Shown here: positions 7,157-29,554 of the stretch, one piece after another | How positions within the stretch are numbered: position 1 is the first letter of the stretch | Layout of the letters: each line of letters begins with the position of its first letter | Assembly (NCBI GenBank): GCA_013694585.1 | Contig: JACDCB010000003.1 | Location: forward strand, 1-40,164 | Reading direction: 5' to 3' | DNA length: 40,164 nucleotides | DNA from: Candidatus Nitrosopumilus sp. | Lineage (GTDB): Archaea; Thermoproteota; Nitrososphaeria; Nitrososphaerales; Nitrososphaeraceae | Notes under the pieces: model-generated | What the model was told of the DNA's origin: nothing | What the model saw: the letters and a program-made list of their open reading frames with translations, nothing else | Databases searched by the model: none | Made by a program: the position numbers and the translations under genes

Positions 7157-7230
7157 ATAAATGCATATTTGATTCCATCAAACCTCATAATACCTTTCAG
7201 AATTATCCTTGTCTAGAGTGTATTCAAAAA

Positions 7231-9000
7231 TTGAAAGACGTATCTTCGGATCCGAATAGATTTCTAGATATTGTTAGATTCACTTCAAAATACGTCCTTT
7301 TTTGTGGACCTTATTCATTATTTTCCAGATCACTTGGAATCAATCATGTTTCTTTTTGCAAATTTTTATCAGATCTTAAAGAAAACAAAATTGAGATCAA
7401 AATTTTAACAGAAATCAATCTGTCAAATGTACCAAAGATAAAAGAACTGTTATCATTTGCAGATATACGGCATGTTGATAGGTTGAAATTAAAATTTATG
7501 ATTAATGAATCAGCTTGTATGTTCCTTCTTAAATCTGATAATAGGAATAATGTGATGAGTGTGATGAGTGACTTAAATTCTGTTACTAGTATAAATACCG
7601 AAGTATTAGAGCAACACAGGTTAATATTTGAACAGTTATGGCAATTTGGTATAGATGCAAAAAAGAAAATACAAGATTTAGAAAATGAATTTGATATGGA
7701 TTCTGTTATACATGAAATTGACAAGAAGGGTATAAAACAATTCGTTGAAAAATTAATAAGTTCATCAAAACATGAAGTCTTGTTCTATACTTCTACCCTA
7801 TGGGGGAGCAATAATTTTATATCCAAAGATCTTTTTGGACTCTTAAAAAATATGGTATTGGAAAATAAAATAAAAGTCAAATTTATCATTCCAGATCTTA
7901 CGATATTAGAGTCAAATAATTTAAAACATATAATTTTGGAATTAGGCACAATAGAGCAACAGGAGGAGCCGCACTTCTTGTTTAGGTCTTTACCAAAAGG
8001 TGATAATATTGACCTTGAATCATTCATCCTGATCATAGATAAATATCATCTGCTAATAGTAAATCCTCATCTAAATAATGAACATCAATCAAATAATGTT
8101 ATTCATAAAGACGATTATTCTTATTCTTATTCTACCCAGATAGACTCTATCAATAAATACACGTTGTTGTTTGATGTGCAATGGGGTAGAGCAGAATTGG
8201 CCGAGAGACTGTATTTTCAGGACATAATGCAAAGAAACTTGATTGATACAATAGCGCATGAATTGCGAACTCCTACACAAGCAATTTTAGGATATTCGGA
8301 AATGGCAACGATAGATATTGACAACAATGAGGCAGGTCAATCCTATAAACAATATTTTGATTCTATTATACGAAACGCTAATAGATTAAACTCTATCGTA
8401 ATAAACATATTAAATGTTGCTAAAATAGACAATACAACTTTCAATTTGAATAAGGAAGAATGCAACATTCATGATATAGTCTCTGAAGCAGTAAACGATT
8501 ATATGTATGTATTTAAGACAGATGACAATCTTGAAAATAAGAGTATTCAATTTGAGGTGTCTGAAAGTTCAGAGAAATCGGTAAGGGCCAATGTAGATAG
8601 AATTCGAATTTATGAAGTGTTAACAAATCTATTTAATAATTCGGTGGAATTCATTGAGTCCATTGGCACAATTATAGTAAAAGTTACTGTAGTAGATAGA
8701 CATTATTTAAACGAAATGAGTCAAGTTAAAAGTCATGATTACGAAAATTTAATAAAACATGATGACAAACACGATAATGACAAATTCATTCTGCTCCACA
8801 TAAAGGATGATGGAAAAGGGATAGACAAATATGTTCTTTCAAAATTATTTAACAAATTTGTCTCTACAGTTGATAATCACATAGGGTTGGGACTATATGT
8901 TTCAAAATATATTGTAGAGTCTCATGGTGGTAGAATTTGGGCCCAGAATAATACTGATGGACAAGGATCGACTTTTTCATTTGTACTTCCTCTCGTATAA
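7231..9000 (+). CDS. Cytosolic sensor histidine kinase with duplicated TrmB/PLD-like sensor
   Basis: A 589-residue kinase. The catalytic half is complete: H-box with H343 (DTIAHELRTPTQAILGYSE), N-box around N466-N470 (LTNLFNNSVEF), G1 at 526-530 (DDGKGI) and G2 at 551-555 (IGLGLYVSKY). The N-terminal half has no membrane segment and consists of two similar units, about residues 5-115 and 165-300. Each has a V-L-F strand, a basic K-I-x-I/V-K strand and a final L-L-I/V strand, and each is followed by an amphipathic helix (HRLIFEQLW; YTLLFDVQWGRAELAER). This architecture resembles the TrmB-type sensor modules of other thaumarchaeal kinases. The signal is unknown. TTG start at 7231; partner probably the preceding receiver or a distant one. 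Confidence 0.85.
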   Translation: MKDVSSDPNRFLDIVRFTSKYVLFCGPYSLFSRSLGINHVSFCKFLSDLKENKIEIKILTEINLSNVPKIKELLSFADIRHVDRLKLKFMINESACMFLLKSDNRNNVMSVMSDLNSVTSINTEVLEQHRLIFEQLWQFGIDAKKKIQDLENEFDMDSVIHEIDKKGIKQFVEKLISSSKHEVLFYTSTLWGSNNFISKDLFGLLKNMVLENKIKVKFIIPDLTILESNNLKHIILELGTIEQQEEPHFLFRSLPKGDNIDLESFILIIDKYHLLIVNPHLNNEHQSNNVIHKDDYSYSYSTQIDSINKYTLLFDVQWGRAELAERLYFQDIMQRNLIDTIAHELRTPTQAILGYSEMATIDIDNNEAGQSYKQYFDSIIRNANRLNSIVINILNVAKIDNTTFNLNKEECNIHDIVSEAVNDYMYVFKTDDNLENKSIQFEVSESSEKSVRANVDRIRIYEVLTNLFNNSVEFIESIGTIIVKVTVVDRHYLNEMSQVKSHDYENLIKHDDKHDNDKFILLHIKDDGKGIDKYVLSKLFNKFVSTVDNHIGLGLYVSKYIVESHGGRIWAQNNTDGQGSTFSFVLPLV

Positions 9001-22772: not shown

Positions 22773-23474
22773 TTATTTTTTGATATTTTTATAATGTAGG
22801 ATTATTTCACCATTACTCTTTTTCTGTATTCTTGACAACTTTATTTTTGCACTTTCATTTATTGTCTTGTAACCTTCTCCACCCACTAAGGATATGGCCT
22901 TTTTCCCCCCAATTATGAGTGGAGATATCGTGATTATTATCTCATCAAACAAGTTATTTTTTATTATAGACCAATTAATTTCCCCTCCTCCTTCAACTAA
23001 GACATTTGATACGCCCTCCTTTTCTAATTGATCAAATAATTTTTTCAAATCCACTTTTTCTCCATTGTCTTCTCCTCTAACCTCTCTATCTTCTGTCCCT
23101 TGGTCTAGCATCATTATTTTGAGACCTCTCTCCTCCAATTTTTTCAGATTCTTAGATGGGGCTTTTGAGGTTACCACCAATCTGGTTTCAATTTGATTTG
23201 CTGTTTTTACAATTTTGGATCGAAGGGGTATTCTAGCTTTACTATCTATTATTATACGAATAGGATTTTTAGTATCATGTTTATTCATACCATATCGTAT
23301 TGTCAATAACGGATCGTCGTTTATGACAGTCGAAATACCCACCAAAATTACATCCGATTCGCGTCTTAATCCATGAACGCGTTTGAGATCCAAAGCCGAT
23401 GAAATTTTTGTATCTCCATTAATAGTAGCGATTTTTCCATCAATACTAGTAGCTGCATTTAGTATTATTTTCAT
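22773..23474 (-). CDS. arfC: 2,5-diamino-6-ribosylamino-4(3H)-pyrimidinone 5'-phosphate reductase
   Basis: A 233-residue RibD_C/RIB7-type reductase of the archaeal riboflavin pathway. It reduces the ribosyl side chain to ribityl with NAD(P)H before deamination. Motifs: ILNAATSIDGKIAT, RRESDVILVGISTVINDDP, IRIIIDSKARIP, NVLVEGGGEINWSII and DEIIITISPLIIGGK. No deaminase domain is attached, as expected for the archaeal/fungal order of steps. The 90-120 region carries a Glu/Lys-rich insert. It is the last gene of the rib operon, 15 bases after the amidohydrolase. Confidence 0.9.
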   Translation of the reverse strand: MKIILNAATSIDGKIATINGDTKISSALDLKRVHGLRRESDVILVGISTVINDDPLLTIRYGMNKHDTKNPIRIIIDSKARIPLRSKIVKTANQIETRLVVTSKAPSKNLKKLEERGLKIMMLDQGTEDREVRGEDNGEKVDLKKLFDQLEKEGVSNVLVEGGGEINWSIIKNNLFDEIIITISPLIIGGKKAISLVGGEGYKTINESAKIKLSRIQKKSNGEIILHYKNIKK

Positions 23475-23489
23475 TCGTCGTTGATACCT

Positions 23490-24869
23490 TTATCTTATTG
23501 CTGTTTTTTCGAGTACAAAATTACCATTAATCATCACTGCTTTTAGTTGTCTCTCAGTGCATCTGTGTACAATTGACATGTGGGGATCATGAATCGGATA
23601 TAGATCTAAATCATATTTATCAATAAAAAGCAAATCTGCTTGATATCCTTTTTCAATACTTCCAATATTTAAGTTAAAAATTTTACCACCATTTACTGTA
23701 GCCATTTTTAGTACCTTCTTTGCATCGAGAAAGCTAGCGTCCTTTTCAACAGCTCTTTGACTCTTTATCAGAAAATCCATTTCTCTAAACATGTCTGGAG
23801 AATTAAGCATAACATTATCTGTTCCAATACCTAATTCAAAATTATATTCTAACAATTTTCTTATTGGTACAAAACCTGTTCCAAGCACTCCATTTGCTCT
23901 AGGGCATATGACTATTTTCTTTTTTTTCTCATGTAATAATTGCAGGTCCGAGTCAGATGGGTTGGTAACATGAATGTATATGTCAGGGTTTAACGTATTA
24001 ACGGTTCTTTCAATTTCCGTCTTTTTGTAGTTTTTTGTGGATTCCATTACTGCTGTTTCGGCCTCTGCAGCATGGATTGCTACCACGGGATCCTTTTTAT
24101 GACTTTTCAATTCGATTTGTTTTTGTTTTTGTTTATATTTCGTAATTATTTTATTATACAACCGTAGCATCTCATTCGTATTTTCGTTTGCACCGCTAAT
24201 GCCAAAGCCATCACAATTCTCAATTATTTTACTACCCTGATGAATAATATCATTTTCTTCTATTACGTTCGGGTTCCCTAAAGTTTTACTCTTTGACTCG
24301 AAATCTTTACCATTTTTTGGAAATCTAGTCGTAGTCTTTGCATCCTTGTCATTAACATTAAAATCAATCCTTCCCAATATGATCTTCTTTATGGGTAAAC
24401 CTTCTACAGCATTTTGGAGGAGGTTTATTCCTTCTAGTCCTCCTTCCCTGAAATCCACAAAGGTAGTTATTCCCTTATGTAACATTGACATTGCTGCATT
24501 TCTTATCATTTGCATTAACTGGGATCTTGGAGTTCTTTCGAGTATTGTCTTTTTAATACCGTATTGTGGATGTATTCTTTGATTTAAATCCGAATTAGCT
24601 GAGATGTCTTTTCCTATGGAGTCTCCTATATGAACATGTGAATTTATTAATCCTGGCAGGAGAATAAAACCTTCTGCATCAATGATGTCTATTTTATTAT
24701 CTTTATTAACTGAATTGGTTATTGTGTTGCCTCTTTTTTCTGGACTTCTTTTGGATAAGGATACATCTTCAATCATTCCATGTTCGTTAATTAGTATAGA
24801 TCCGTTCTGAACTATTTGCAGTTCCTTACCGAACAAAATGTATGCATTTTTTATTAATATCTTTTTCAA
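23490..24869 (-). CDS. Amidohydrolase (cytosine deaminase/TRZ type) inside the riboflavin operon
   Basis: A 459-residue metal-dependent hydrolase. Metal and catalytic residues: H78-x-H80 (NSHVHIGD), H266 and E269 (AIHAAEAETAV), H300 (IYIHVTNPSD) and D351 (GIGTDNVMLNSP). This set (HxH, H, H, D plus the HxxE glutamate) is that of the cytosine-deaminase/chlorohydrolase branch, whose members deaminate purines and pyrimidines. An Asp/Lys-rich insert lies at about 172-205. The start ATG (24869) overlaps the stop of arfA by four bases (ATGA), so it is translationally coupled between arfA and arfC. That position suits the deformylase step after ArfA (no ArfB homologue is seen here) or the pyrimidine deaminase step after ArfC. 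The function is inferred from context and unproven. Confidence 0.8.
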   Translation of the reverse strand: MKKILIKNAYILFGKELQIVQNGSILINEHGMIEDVSLSKRSPEKRGNTITNSVNKDNKIDIIDAEGFILLPGLINSHVHIGDSIGKDISANSDLNQRIHPQYGIKKTILERTPRSQLMQMIRNAAMSMLHKGITTFVDFREGGLEGINLLQNAVEGLPIKKIILGRIDFNVNDKDAKTTTRFPKNGKDFESKSKTLGNPNVIEENDIIHQGSKIIENCDGFGISGANENTNEMLRLYNKIITKYKQKQKQIELKSHKKDPVVAIHAAEAETAVMESTKNYKKTEIERTVNTLNPDIYIHVTNPSDSDLQLLHEKKKKIVICPRANGVLGTGFVPIRKLLEYNFELGIGTDNVMLNSPDMFREMDFLIKSQRAVEKDASFLDAKKVLKMATVNGGKIFNLNIGSIEKGYQADLLFIDKYDLDLYPIHDPHMSIVHRCTERQLKAVMINGNFVLEKTAIR

Positions 24870-25663
24870 TTCGATTCAAAAACATTGATTATTTTTCCGC
24901 CTCTTCTGTAATCTCTTATTGTATCAAGTGACTTGGTTGCTTTCTCTGCAGCTCTTCTTGCACTACTGCCATTTCCGATACCGCAATTCAGCTTAATTCC
25001 AGTTGAGCTTATTAAAAAATTAACTATTTCTGTTATTTTTTTGGTTTGAATATCATTTTTTGCAACAATCATAAAATTATCTCCACCCAAAAAGAAAGTT
25101 AAACTTTCTTCTTTGACGAATGAATCTGATATTGCTAAATATAGCCTCATTATTAAATTTGTGATTTCATAAGTTGAAAGATTTTTAACTATCGAAGTGG
25201 AACTATTGACGTCTATATGTAGTATTTTTAAGTCGTTAAGACCACAATGATTTTCTATTTCACTAGTTCGATGACCTTCATGTACCGTGTAATTTTCTTG
25301 TATGCCATAAATATTTGGAAAAATCATGTTTTTAGTATCTTTTTTTATATCGTGTATTTTCTTGTCAGCTTCTAGTGGAGTTTTTCCGGTCCCTATCGTC
25401 ATTGATATCTTTATACTTTCATTTTTTTTCGAAAGTCTATCATAGATTTCTTTATGATCATCTAAGCTTATTTGATTTGTCACTGCAATAAACTCATCAA
25501 ATCGGTTAGAGAATACTAATCCGTTTTTAGCCGAAAAACATTCTTGTAAATCTGCATATATTTTTGACTGTAGAATTTGTAACGCATATTCTCTGTCACT
25601 ACCTAGGGTTAGAGTCCATGTACCGTAACCCTCTAATTTTATTACTGTTATTTGACAAACCAA
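24866..25663 (-). CDS. arfA: GTP cyclohydrolase III (archaeal type)
   Basis: 265 residues, the first step of archaeal riboflavin and F420 precursor synthesis: GTP to the formylamino pyrimidine (FAPy) nucleotide. The family start is clear (ITVIKLEGYGTWTLTLGSDRE), followed by LQSKIYADLQECF and NRFDEFIAVTNQIS. The C-terminal cyclase-like palm has LHIDVNSSTS and FFLGGDNFMIVA, whose acidic residues bind metal, and it ends with ARRAAEKATKSLDTIR. The start is TTG 25663, one base after the ribH stop. Its stop overlaps the amidohydrolase ATG. Confidence 0.92.
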   Translation of the reverse strand: MVCQITVIKLEGYGTWTLTLGSDREYALQILQSKIYADLQECFSAKNGLVFSNRFDEFIAVTNQISLDDHKEIYDRLSKKNESIKISMTIGTGKTPLEADKKIHDIKKDTKNMIFPNIYGIQENYTVHEGHRTSEIENHCGLNDLKILHIDVNSSTSIVKNLSTYEITNLIMRLYLAISDSFVKEESLTFFLGGDNFMIVAKNDIQTKKITEIVNFLISSTGIKLNCGIGNGSSARRAAEKATKSLDTIRDYRRGGKIINVFESN

Positions 25664-25664
25664 T

Positions 25665-26123
25665 CTAATCTACTATTTTTGTACCGCTGTTTTTCATTTT
25701 ATAATTTCTTATTCTTTTTAGCCTCTTTACCATCCCAATCGCAGTATCAACTGCATGATGTGATGCGGAAATTATCCTTGACTCGGCTTGCTCAAAGGTC
25801 ATATCTGGTCCGGTGATCCCTAAGGATATTGGTTTATTATATTTTAAAGAAAGTTCGCCAAGTAACTTGGCTGTGCTGTTAGCTATTACTTCGTCATGAC
25901 TGGTATCACCTTTTATTATCGCCCCCAAGGTTACTACTGCATCGACATCATTTTTTTTTAAAATCTCTTGTACCATAATAGGCATATCAAATGCTCCGGG
26001 GACAAAGCGAACGTAGGTTATTTTTGATGAAAGTTCCTTTGCATATTTTTTAGCTTCACTTAGCATAGCAAAGGTTATTTCATTATTAAATTCTGAAACA
26101 ACAATTCCAATTCTTATTTTCAT
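25665..26123 (-). CDS. ribH: 6,7-dimethyl-8-ribityllumazine synthase
   Basis: 152 residues, the penultimate step of riboflavin synthesis, condensing the ribitylamino-uracil with dihydroxybutanone phosphate. Motifs: IGIVVSEFNNEITFAML, VPGAFDMPIMVQEIL, AVVTLGAIIKGDTSHDEVI with the catalytic His, ISLGITGPDMTFEQAESR. The protein is short and lacks a long C-terminal extension, as usual in archaea. The start ATG overlaps the ribB stop by four bases (ATGA). Confidence 0.95.
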   Translation of the reverse strand: MKIRIGIVVSEFNNEITFAMLSEAKKYAKELSSKITYVRFVPGAFDMPIMVQEILKKNDVDAVVTLGAIIKGDTSHDEVIANSTAKLLGELSLKYNKPISLGITGPDMTFEQAESRIISASHHAVDTAIGMVKRLKRIRNYKMKNSGTKIVD

Positions 26124-26833
26124 CTTTGTTTTTCGAATGATTCCGCATATGTTATCAAATCTTTTGCCTCAATGATTACTAGATTGTTGTCATTTGCATA
26201 TTTGACTGCATCCTTATACGATAAGGCTTTGTAACTGTGAGGATCTAACATCTCACAAATGGTTGTGATGTTCGTCATATTGGCAATTTTTGTAAGAAAG
26301 ATTGACATCTCTGTGTGTCCTTTTCTTTCATTGAGTAATCCTTTTGAAGAAATTAGGATGGGTACGTGTCCCGGTGTTCTAAAGTTGCTACGAAACTTTT
26401 CAATGGTTGTTTTCTGATCTTTCTGATAATCACTCAAATCATTACAAATATTTGCTAATGATGAAATGGTTAAAGCTCTGTCACGATCAGTTATTCCAGT
26501 GTAAGTGTTAATGTGGTTTAGCGTAACGGAAAAAGATGGTCTGTCACCATATGGTGAGCTGTTACTATTAATAGAAGAAATGGTTTGATTCGTAGTCCCA
26601 AAAATATTTAGTACATCGTAAATAAATGGCAATCCCAATTTCGTGGCTATTTCCTTTGATATTGCGGTGCAGATCAACCCACCAGCATCCTTTCTCATTG
26701 TAGCAATATGTTCTGGAGATATGTTATTAGAAGATACGACCATGTCAACCTCGTCTTCACGACCATCATCATCATGAATTAAAACGAAATTTCCATTCTT
26801 TAACGAAGTTATGGCTTCCGATATCTTTGTCAA
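26120..26833 (-). CDS. ribB: 3,4-dihydroxy-2-butanone 4-phosphate synthase
   Basis: 237 residues that make the four-carbon unit from ribulose 5-phosphate. Motifs: the acidic loop HDDDGREDEVDMVV, DAGGLICTAISKEIA, the substrate loop with TGITDRDRA, and FRTPGHVPIL followed by RKGHTEMSI. It lacks a GTP cyclohydrolase II domain, consistent with ArfA supplying the pyrimidine branch. The start is TTG 26833, 23 bases after ribE. Confidence 0.93.
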   Translation of the reverse strand: MTKISEAITSLKNGNFVLIHDDDGREDEVDMVVSSNNISPEHIATMRKDAGGLICTAISKEIATKLGLPFIYDVLNIFGTTNQTISSINSNSSPYGDRPSFSVTLNHINTYTGITDRDRALTISSLANICNDLSDYQKDQKTTIEKFRSNFRTPGHVPILISSKGLLNERKGHTEMSIFLTKIANMTNITTICEMLDPHSYKALSYKDAVKYANDNNLVIIEAKDLITYAESFEKQR

Positions 26834-26856: not shown

Positions 26857-27513
26857 TTAATATATCTTACTATTTTTCTTGTTATTACCAGAAAATTGGT
26901 AGATATTTGATATATATCTTGATAAAATGTCTGCCTCTATGTTTACTGCATCCCCTGCCCTCTTGATTCCGAGTGTGGTGTTCTCCAAAGTATGAGGAAT
27001 CAGTGCTATTTCAACGATACTCTTTCTAACGCTTACGACAGTAAGACTTATTCCATCTATTGCTATGGAGCCCTTTTGAGCAATAAGAGGCAATAAATCT
27101 TTATTTAATATTTCTATTTTAATTCTACTTCCCAAATCTCCTCTTTCTAATTTTTTGATTATGCCTATGCCATCGATATGACCTAGCACAAAGTGTCCTT
27201 CCAGTCTGCCTCCAATGCTTAGACTCCTTTCAACATTTACTTTGTCTCCTATCTTTAAATCAATAAAATTTGTTCTATTGATGGTTTCATCAATGACCTG
27301 AAAAGTGGCTTTGGAATCGTTTAACTTTGAAACAGTCAAACATACTCCATTTATTGATACGCTATCTCCAATTTTGATATCTTTTGATTCTGGTAAAAAT
27401 AGCGTAATTTCGATATGGTGATTCGCTTTACTATCACTCTTTTTATTTCTTTTACTTTTACTTTTTTCTATGTTTTCAATTTCACCTAAATATTCTGTAA
27501 TTCCAGTAAACAT
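26857..27513 (-). CDS. ribE: Riboflavin synthase alpha chain (bacterial type)
   Basis: 218 residues; dismutates two lumazines to riboflavin. Two lumazine-binding repeats are visible: MFTGITEYLGEIENIE...GDSVSINGVCLTVSKL and GRLEGHFVLGHIDGIGIIK...GSIAIDGISLTVVSV. Many euryarchaea instead have the unrelated archaeal riboflavin synthase, so this gene is bacterial-like within an otherwise archaeal operon. A basic Lys/Ser/Asn insert sits at residues 18-32. ATG 27513 is preceded by an AAATTATATTT element about 22 bases upstream, so the operon probably starts here. Confidence 0.93.
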   Translation of the reverse strand: MFTGITEYLGEIENIEKSKSKRNKKSDSKANHHIEITLFLPESKDIKIGDSVSINGVCLTVSKLNDSKATFQVIDETINRTNFIDLKIGDKVNVERSLSIGGRLEGHFVLGHIDGIGIIKKLERGDLGSRIKIEILNKDLLPLIAQKGSIAIDGISLTVVSVRKSIVEIALIPHTLENTTLGIKRAGDAVNIEADILSRYISNIYQFSGNNKKNSKIY

Positions 27514-27595: not shown

Positions 27596-28471
27596 TTACC
27601 TTAAGTCTAAAATTCTTCTAGCCTGTTTGTAATGTACCGCATCTATCATCTTTCCTTCCAACTTTACTGCGCCTGCACTACTGTTTTTCGCACTGTCTAA
27701 GGCTTGTACTACTTTTTTTGCCCATTCGATGTCCTGGTTTGATGGACTAAACACGCTATGTACATGCTCAATTTGAGACGGATGAATAATGCATTTTCCA
27801 TTATAACCCAATTTTTTACCTAGTTTAAGATCTTTTATCAAACCGCTATGATCATGAATGTCTTGCCAGATTGAATCAATAGAGTCGATGCCTGCAGCTC
27901 TGGCATCTACCGGTACTTTTGCCCTAGCATACATAAAACCTGTGATCGTCTCCATGTCCTGATTATCAATTTTCATGTCGTGTAAGAAATCAAAAATGCC
28001 AAATACCAACGTGGTAATTCTTTGATCTGATTTAGCTATATTATATGCGTTAACTACTCCCAACGCAGATTCAATCGACGGGATTATTTTAATGATCCCA
28101 CTTTGAATGTTTTTTTCATTCTCTTTTTTTTCTATTATTTTTGAAATTTCTGCTATCTGTTTGTCATCATCAACCTTTGGAATTACAATTGCATCAATTC
28201 CCGGGGTGATGACTTTTTTCAAATCCGTAGCCATCTGATCAGAAGTTGGAGAATTGATTCTTACCGCCAGGATTCGCTCCTTATTTATATCATTAATCTT
28301 GCTAATTTCTTGAATTGCGCTTCTTACACTTTCTCTTGCGATTTCTTTTTCTTCTTGGGGTACTGAATCTTCTAAATCATAACATATAATGTCTGAATTT
28401 ATTGTTCTGGACTTTTCTAAAAATCTCTGATTATTTCCAGGAATAAAAATTAAACTTCTTGATCTTCCCAC
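27596..28471 (-). CDS. HpcH/HpaI aldolase - CitE-like CoA ester lyase
   Basis: 291 residues of the citrate lyase beta / malyl-CoA lyase family, TIM-barrel enzymes that cleave or form C-C bonds of acyl-CoA esters using Mg2+. Motifs: SLIFIPGNNQRFLEKS, the metal/CoA region DIICYDLEDSVPQEEK, ILAVRINSP, DAIVIPKVDD, IIPSIESALGVVNAYNIA and the Mg-ligand region TTLVFGIFDFLHDM. The C-terminal LGYNGKCIIHPSQIEHV is the family CoA-binding segment. GTG 28471 with a TTTTATATCC box 26 bases upstream. Substrate unknown; malyl-CoA or citramalyl-CoA lyase activity is common. Confidence 0.88.
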   Translation of the reverse strand: MGRSRSLIFIPGNNQRFLEKSRTINSDIICYDLEDSVPQEEKEIARESVRSAIQEISKINDINKERILAVRINSPTSDQMATDLKKVITPGIDAIVIPKVDDDKQIAEISKIIEKKENEKNIQSGIIKIIPSIESALGVVNAYNIAKSDQRITTLVFGIFDFLHDMKIDNQDMETITGFMYARAKVPVDARAAGIDSIDSIWQDIHDHSGLIKDLKLGKKLGYNGKCIIHPSQIEHVHSVFSPSNQDIEWAKKVVQALDSAKNSSAGAVKLEGKMIDAVHYKQARRILDLR

Positions 28472-28504
28472 AATATACTTGTTTTACAATTGGATATAAA
28501 AAAA

Positions 28505-29554
28505 TTAAAGTTTTTGGGGATTGGTTAAGATCTTTCCTATTTGTTCGGCCCCAGCCATCATCGCATGACCTTCCACCATATTTGAAAAAGGCAATGTGGT
28601 ATGAATAAGTGGTTTTAATTTATTTTTGCTCGTCCAATAAATGACCTGTTCTAATTCTGCTTTTGTCCCCTGAGTGGACCCAAGCAAGTTAGTACCTTTG
28701 AAGAATAAGAATCTTAAATCTATGGTAGAATCATAACCTGTTGTAGCTCCTGTAGCAACGAGTGTGCCTCCAATTTTTAACAGACCAACTTCTTGAGGGA
28801 AAACGTTCTTTCCAATGTGCTCAAACACGATGTCCACACCTTCCTTCTTGGTAATTTCTCTTACTTTTTTATACCAATCAGCCTCTCTGTGATTTACAAC
28901 GTTATCTGCGCCAAGTTCCAGACATTTATCCATTTTTTGTTGGTTTCCTGCTGTGGCAATAACATTACAATTATACAACTTTGCGATTTGAATGCCTACC
29001 ATGCCTACACCACTTGTTCCTCCCATGATCAATACGGTTTGACCTGGAATTATTCTTGCTCTTCCAACAAGCATATGCCAAGCTGTCATTCCCACCATTG
29101 AAATAGCAGCAGCATCCTCAAAGGATACATTTTCTGGTAGTTTTGCCACATTTACTTCAGGCAAGTGTGTATATTGAGCAAAACCTCCCCACAGCGGACC
29201 TGTTTGGAATCCCCATATAGATCTCTCTTTACAATCATACTCTCTTCCTGCTGTACATTGCTCACATATTCTACAACTCATATTAGAATGAGATACGACC
29301 CTGTCGCCGACCTTGAGCTTTGTTACATCTTCTCCTATCTCAACTACTGTTCCTGCTACATCACTTCCAGAAATATGAGGAAGTGGTGTTTTAACCGGAT
29401 CTCCCCATATCGCCCATAAATCATTATAATTATATGCGGCCGACTCAACTTTTATCAAAACTTCATTTGCTTTTATTTTTGGTACGTCGATGTCTTCAAT
29501 TTTTACTACTTTAGTAGGATCCTTGTTATATTCTCTAAAAACAGCTGCCTTCAT
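28505..29554 (-). CDS. Zinc-type MDR alcohol dehydrogenase / possible acryloyl-CoA-type reductase
   Basis: 349 residues of the medium-chain dehydrogenase/reductase superfamily. N-terminal GroES-like domain: YNYNDLWAIWGDPVKTPLPH, GSDVAGTVVEIGEDVTKLK, then structural zinc cysteines in SCRICEQCTAGREYDC. Rossmann domain: VLIMGGTSGVGMVGIQIAK, with NADP likely. The proximal Cys of the catalytic zinc site appears to be replaced (YNYNDL), as in non-zinc reductases of CoA esters. Archaeal acryloyl-CoA reductases of the 3-hydroxypropionate pathway belong to this superfamily, and the CitE-like neighbour also acts on CoA esters; this link is inference. Single ATG start at 29554. Confidence 0.85.
   Translation of the reverse strand: MKAAVFREYNKDPTKVVKIEDIDVPKIKANEVLIKVESAAYNYNDLWAIWGDPVKTPLPHISGSDVAGTVVEIGEDVTKLKVGDRVVSHSNMSCRICEQCTAGREYDCKERSIWGFQTGPLWGGFAQYTHLPEVNVAKLPENVSFEDAAAISMVGMTAWHMLVGRARIIPGQTVLIMGGTSGVGMVGIQIAKLYNCNVIATAGNQQKMDKCLELGADNVVNHREADWYKKVREITKKEGVDIVFEHIGKNVFPQEVGLLKIGGTLVATGATTGYDSTIDLRFLFFKGTNLLGSTQGTKAELEQVIYWTSKNKLKPLIHTTLPFSNMVEGHAMMAGAEQIGKILTNPQKL

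Follow-up and report, generated by a model that had tools for sequence, protein, structure and literature searches.

Candidates have been put forward for the deaminase step by which archaea make vitamin B2 and F420, and no assayed archaeal enzyme was found in the open-licence literature searched. Pfeiffer and Dyall-Smith (2021; PMC8305020, Table 6) give HVO_2483, which shares 34% identity with MJ0699, as a predicted entry standing after arfC and ahead of the phosphatase gap (EC 3.1.3.104); that source credits the MJ0699/HVO_2483 prediction to Rodionova et al. (2017). Because they are listed at this position, MJ0699 and HVO_2483 apparently serve the step considered here, and the table row gives neither a family nor a reaction. 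Methanocaldococcus jannaschii (M. jannaschii) and H. volcanii each have a match to NF005552 at E<=1e-40, and the two proteins probably belong to the same family as the protein described below. A preliminary description of this DNA held that no well-established archaeal enzyme was known for the deamination; this stands in so far as no assayed one was found, and falls short in that a candidate had already been published.

A 2026 review calls the remaining steps conserved between bacteria and archaea, a statement that does not fit the phylum of the organism studied here, because complete RibD was found in one of 398 of its genomes. In published descriptions the archaeal order resembles the fungal one, with the reduction coming first (PMC3631187, PMC13028884). 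The RibD/RIB2 deaminase, which has the cytidine-deaminase fold, catalyzes in this pathway the kind of reaction that is proposed for our protein, but is of another family, so that the archaeal protein would be a non-orthologous replacement. The ArfB and BrbF formamidases, of the creatininase family, are hydrolases of the same pathway and again differ from it in family; BrbF has been assayed as a formamidase (PMC9478397).

An amidohydrolase gene within the riboflavin operon

The window (the whole 40,164-nucleotide stretch analyzed) carries an operon on its minus strand in the order ribE-ribB-ribH-arfA-AMH-arfC, where AMH is an amidohydrolase gene. In the order of transcription its genes are:

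26857..27513, minus strand: ribE, riboflavin synthase (NF006767, 205.6 bits, cut-off 155)
26120..26833, minus strand: ribB (TIGR00506, 208.3 bits, cut-off 177.45)
25665..26123, minus strand: ribH, lumazine synthase (TIGR00114, 132.5 bits, cut-off 84.6)
24866..25663, minus strand: arfA, GTP cyclohydrolase III, step 1 (PF05165 GCH_III, E 6.7e-53)
23490..24869, minus strand: AMH, amidohydrolase-superfamily enzyme, proposed 2,5-diamino-6-ribitylamino-4(3H)-pyrimidinone 5'-phosphate deaminase (PF01979, NF005552)
22773..23474, minus strand: arfC, 2,5-diamino-6-ribosylamino-pyrimidinone 5'-phosphate reductase, step 3 (TIGR01508, 191.7 bits, cut-off 186.45; PF01872)

The reading frames and the profiles of the neighbors confirm the earlier placing of AMH between arfA and arfC. 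The arfA product scores 170 bits against NF002587, below the cut-off of 306, and no deaminase half was found in the arfC of the window. AMH and arfA overlap by four bases, as the preliminary description had it, but the overlap is TTGA (plus-strand positions 24866-24869 read tcaa) and not ATGA. The start codon of AMH is therefore TTG, and the intact reading frame encodes 459 amino acids; the same TTGA junction occurs in all four Nitrosocosmicus relatives checked (L038, L039, L040 and L048). The 15-base spacer between AMH and arfC (23475-23489) was also as described. A scan for promoters and terminators found 21 and 2 sites, respectively; shuffled sequences gave 22.8 and 1.9. Genes for a HpcH/HpaI (citE-like) lyase and a crotonyl-CoA-reductase-like dehydrogenase precede ribE (27596-29554), and at many Nitrosocosmicus and Nitrosopumilus loci homologs adjoin the rib operon.

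The AMH protein matches PF01979 (Amidohydro_1) with an E value of 5.7e-47 and scores 328 bits against NF005552, above the curated cut-off of 294. In the same Pfam scan it had no match at E<=0.001 to PF02633 (ArfB, creatininase family) or PF00383 (RibD/RIB2 deaminase). Its HxH, HxxE, H and D motifs and TIM barrel are those of the aminohydrolase branch (PF01979, COG0402-like) of the amidohydrolase superfamily. The catalytic residues named beforehand (H78, H80, H266, E269, H300 and D351) are all in place; they are invariant in the 33 rows of alignment A1, and a wider alignment has the set in each of its 69 AMH rows. By analogy, we take H78, H80, H266 and D351 to bind the metal, E269 to shuttle a proton to a ring nitrogen and H300 to help polarize the water. 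NF005552 (PRK07213) is an NCBIfam equivalog named ‘chlorohydrolase’, to which AMH belongs by score; nothing in these data supports dechlorination.

The predicted AMH fold (mean pLDDT 84.9) has adenosine-type, isocytosine and guanine deaminases as its nearest solved folds, and the top matches are aminohydrolases or dechlorinases whose substrates have purine, pyrimidine or triazine rings. Among solved structures none was recognized as a member of the AMH family. Six residues (D83, K106, E142, R324, N352 and R436) differ from the paralogs, which have glutamate at the position of K106 in 15 of 17 rows, and from the MTA/SAH and adenosine-type deaminases of known structure (TM0936, 1p1m, which we take to be an MTA/SAH deaminase; 4dyk; 4f0r). 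K106, R324 and R436, located along strands of the predicted model, are typical of the family and, together with D83, E142 and N352, probably read the ribityl phosphate of the substrate. From the guanine and isocytosine deaminases (2i9u; 7ww2, 8is4) AMH differs in its proposed substrate, which would carry a 5-amino group as well as a ribityl phosphate.

Conservation and occurrence of AMH

The three closest named loci are from Nitrosocosmicus, with AMH proteins 82-88% identical to that of the window, whose genome is accordingly assigned to Ca. Nitrosocosmicus. Among 63 named loci, of which 61 were testable, arfA lies directly upstream of AMH in 54 and arfC directly downstream in 56; the gene gaps obtained with these counts were set by the first start codon of each reading frame and are not true intergenic distances. 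Some rib-pathway gene is near AMH in 62 of the 63, the exception (L100) being grouped with the paralogs in the tree. Upstream arfA is lacking at L100, at L090 (arfC only), at four Thermoplasmata loci (L093, L094, L096 and L097) and at L089, where arfA is detected by tblastn and was missed in the count through the start chosen by the script. Downstream arfC is lacking at L100 and the same four Thermoplasmata loci. The reading given beforehand would have been refuted by a lack of conserved linkage in related genomes; the linkage is in fact conserved.

Further families of the phylum, and Thermoplasmata as well, also have AMH with rib or arf neighbors, at 21-37% identity to the window protein. In distant relatives within the phylum AMH lies with ribB-ribH-arfA (L107, L113, L115-L119, L121), with arfC (L108, L111, L112, L114, L124-L127, L134, L135) or with ribH (L234); since these loci were selected by score, they give no rate of linkage. 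Unlinked AMH is common elsewhere, mainly in families f13 and f15 and one genus of f25. The label ‘unlinked’ applies to 29 of the 69 AMH rows of the tree, among them L128, which lies by cofH, and L120, which has arfC about 3 kb away; no pathway gene was seen among the 10 AMH-near proteins at the unlinked loci L267, L268, L269, L271, L272, L109 and L240. With the unlinked rows as exceptions, AMH shows the conserved association with arfA/arfC/rib or cof genes proposed for an archaeal DArPP deaminase. The linkage of AMH to the operon is old, and AMH is a real pathway gene. At one locus of the window's family (L129, genome G227) two reading frames that match no NCBIfam model at E<=1e-8 lie between AMH and arfC (7215-7592 and 7599-8108). 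At another locus (L041) a rib operon like that of Nitrosopumilus lies on a contig assigned to a Phycisphaerae bacterium, and this contig is probably mis-binned.

The occurrence of AMH was compared with that of ribH, whose absence was defined as no match to PF00885 at E<=1e-10. Matches to NF005552 at E<=1e-40 were found in 108 of 162 ribH-positive genomes of the phylum, versus 5 of 236 ribH-negative ones. For the 54 ribH-positive genomes with weaker matches, a wider profile was applied to 49 and a tree placed the other five, which raised the first count to 156 of 162. Of the 43 genomes added by the profile, 19 group with AMH across the branch in the tree and 24 were added by score alone, as the wider profile also matches a paralog (L253, 3.1e-48). 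Applied to 11 of the 236 ribH-negative genomes, it had no match. Six ribH-positive genomes are without a clear AMH (G091, G161, G179, G327, G331 and G364); G161 and G179 are 99% complete, and G161 has one partial AMH match (5.5e-11).

The preliminary description had named a deaminase elsewhere as evidence against its reading. Complete RibD, at E<=1e-40, was found in the single phylum genome G309 and not in the genome of the window; the other seven RibD matches among the 398 genomes comprise the reductase half only, at a threshold where a deaminase domain standing by itself with a weak match would go undetected. One PF00383 deaminase-like gene, with no assigned role, is present in the window's genome. 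Of 46 hand-chosen genomes, 44 have AMH; PF00383 has no match in 16, each of which carries AMH. The pattern proposed for a DArPP deaminase, AMH where ribH is present and a RibD deaminase is absent, was thus observed. In G309 a single 583-amino-acid reading frame (L142, 5300-7051) combines GTP cyclohydrolase II (GCH II) with the complete RibD, a bacterial-type replacement; this genome has no match for AMH, GTP cyclohydrolase III (GCH III), creatininase or ribH, and the contig ends soon past that frame.

In 14 control genomes NF005552 was matched at E<=1e-40 in all four archaea and none of the ten bacteria. At E<=1e-3 it matches 10 of the 14, bacteria included, so only strong matches were counted. 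RibD is above its cut-off in 10 of the 14 controls, which should be the ten bacteria. The archaeal control M. acetivorans has AMH and ribH matches and none for GCH III, GCH II or creatininase. A complete, single-contig 1.5 Mb genome of an ammonia-oxidizing relative of the same order (G338) has no match for AMH, GCH III, RibD/ArfC, creatininase or ribH, and has apparently lost the riboflavin route.

The step served by AMH

AMH could in principle be an MTA/SAH, 5'-deoxyadenosine or guanine deaminase that lies in the operon by chance, and the closest solved structures and folds are of this kind. Against this, it scores far below the cut-offs of the models for MTA/SAH deaminase (74.9 bits, cut-off 779), 5'-deoxyadenosine deaminase (120.5, cut-off 522) and guanine deaminase (TIGR02967; 81.3, cut-off 375.4), and its pocket residues K106, R324, R436 and N352 differ. 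In the tree one branch with 100/100 support separates AMH from the MTA/SAH-type deaminases, with all 14 sampled paralogs and three other rows beyond it. The tree is unrooted, and its midpoint drawing has the paralogs branching from among the AMH rows, so it does not establish AMH as a single clade. In G227, a genome from the family of the window, a 5'-deoxyadenosine-deaminase-like protein (L256; 518.9 bits, cut-off 522) is encoded separately from AMH. An MTA/SAH or guanine deaminase identity, proposed beforehand as a point to check, was rejected on the cut-offs and the tree, and a chance lodger of this kind is extremely unlikely. NF005552 matches all 33 rows of A1 at E<=1e-10 and is above its cut-off in only 76 of the 398 phylum genomes, so distant AMH members fall below that cut-off. 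The assumption that every match to it is AMH was discarded, as MTA/SAH-type proteins reach 2.4e-36; two loci first taken as AMH (L140 in G396 and L144 in G261) are grouped with the paralogs by the tree.

Deformylation of the ArfA product was the second role considered possible beforehand. AMH directly follows arfA at 54 of the 61 testable loci, amidohydrolases are able to cleave amides, and neither creatininase-family gene of the window's genome reaches the cut-off for ArfB. The absence of ArfB from the window, remarked on earlier, was borne out: both genes are on other contigs (in an assembly of 280 contigs that is 90% complete). One of them, on contig C72, has relatives in nine other ammonia-oxidizing archaea at 38-66% identity and scores 39.7 bits with the ArfB model (cut-off 180); the other has no match at E<=1e-5. 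The C72 gene is the better ArfB candidate of the two.

Loci from Thermoplasmata speak against the deformylase role. In all four (L093, L094, L096 and L097) the order is ribB-ribH-AMH-ribE, and the genomes have no GCH III match and one GCH II each. Every one of these GCH II proteins keeps the cysteines and the tyrosine of the KxxAY motif, a tyrosine important for the function of the enzyme. The long matches to the RibD model in the four genomes cover the reductase half only; short matches to the deaminase half, of 34-36 bits, occur in three, and the fourth (G402) has neither such a match nor one to PF00383. GCH II releases formate, and so deformylates, unaided (PMC9478397). As AMH is kept beside this self-deformylating enzyme and without a GCH III match, it is not the deformylase, and that role was rejected. 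M. acetivorans likewise has AMH without a GCH III match, one cluster (L106) holds AMH together with a creatininase-family gene, the HxxE set is typical of ring aminohydrolases and the top folds are deaminases and dechlorinases. A deformylase acting in place of ArfB is therefore very unlikely. The four Thermoplasmata genomes also carry one creatininase-family gene each, which indicates that this family has other roles too. A draw from the phylum of one of them (G400) gave NF005552 matches at E<=1e-40 in 70 of 116 genomes, two of them above the cut-off.

The five ribH-negative genomes with strong AMH set a limit on the other side. AMH-arfC-cofG-cofH is the order in two (G019 and G109), arfA-AMH-arfC-creatininase-cofG-cofH in a third (G369), and AMH lies by cofH in G234 and by arfC in G103; the ribH absences in the last two are weak, because G234 is 62% complete and G103 is in 80 contigs. 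The substrate of CofH is 5-amino-6-ribitylamino-uracil (PMC8498797). Since four genomes without a ribH match keep AMH with cofH, AMH acts before the branch between riboflavin and F420. In the genomes that hold the clusters of G019 (L125, 5944-10231) and G109 (L126, 5956-10172), GCH III, GCH II and lumazine synthase all went unmatched, which suggests use in an F420-type pathway with another first enzyme. The cluster of G369 (L106, 5184-10985) brings together almost all of the path that leads from GTP to the F420 chromophore.

The steps left after deformylation and ahead of the branch point are reduction (by ArfC), deamination and dephosphorylation, and of these deamination would suit an HxxE aminohydrolase. 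Dephosphorylation also lacks a gene, being a listed gap in H. volcanii (PMC8305020), and linkage suits any step from GTP opening to the branch point, so position alone does not separate it from deamination; the distinction rests on fold and motif. These are of N-heterocycle aminohydrolases, and if AMH filled the phosphatase gap or served the branch as some other hydrolase, such as a salvage or repair enzyme, the deaminase gap would remain in genomes that have neither RibD nor a PF00383 match; we give such a role scarcely any credence. A deamination in the bacterial order, in which AMH would act on 2,5-diamino-6-ribosylamino-pyrimidinone 5'-phosphate and ArfC would reduce the uracil product, looks the same by sequence and neighborhood as the archaeal order. 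It is unlikely all the same, as archaea are described as reducing first (PMC3631187, PMC13028884) and the reductase of the window is of the archaeal type by TIGR01508.

Proposed reaction and implications

The linkage, the Thermoplasmata loci, the cofH clusters and the motif and fold support, as the best fit, the earlier reading of AMH as a 2,5-diamino-6-ribitylamino-pyrimidinone deaminase. AMH very probably serves archaea as the deaminase in the early part of the riboflavin/F420 pathway, acting on the product of ArfC. In the proposed sequence ArfA would open GTP, an ArfB-type formamidase would remove the formyl group, ArfC would reduce the ribosyl chain and AMH would follow. A metal-activated water in AMH would exchange the 2-amino group of 2,5-diamino-6-ribitylamino-4(3H)-pyrimidinone 5'-phosphate for oxygen, giving ammonia and 5-amino-6-ribitylamino-uracil 5'-phosphate. 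As the ring of this substrate is an isocytosine (2-amino-4-oxopyrimidine), the chemistry would be of the guanine/isocytosine deaminase type.

What is new here is the evidence that parts the deaminase reading from the deformylase reading and ties AMH to F420 as well as to riboflavin. It is likely that a widespread archaeal deaminase of the amidohydrolase fold, unrelated to RibD/RIB2, serves both pathways, with deaminase and reductase as a conserved core and the GTP-opening enzyme swapped. On this view the deaminase accompanies arfC and cofG-cofH where lumazine synthase is missing, and GCH II where the first enzyme has been replaced. If so, the step would be filled for the ammonia-oxidizing archaea, and related genes would extend this to much of the phylum and to the four control archaea; the NCBI ‘chlorohydrolase’ family NF005552 would gain a function, and the archaeal route could be rebuilt in a laboratory bacterium without ribD.
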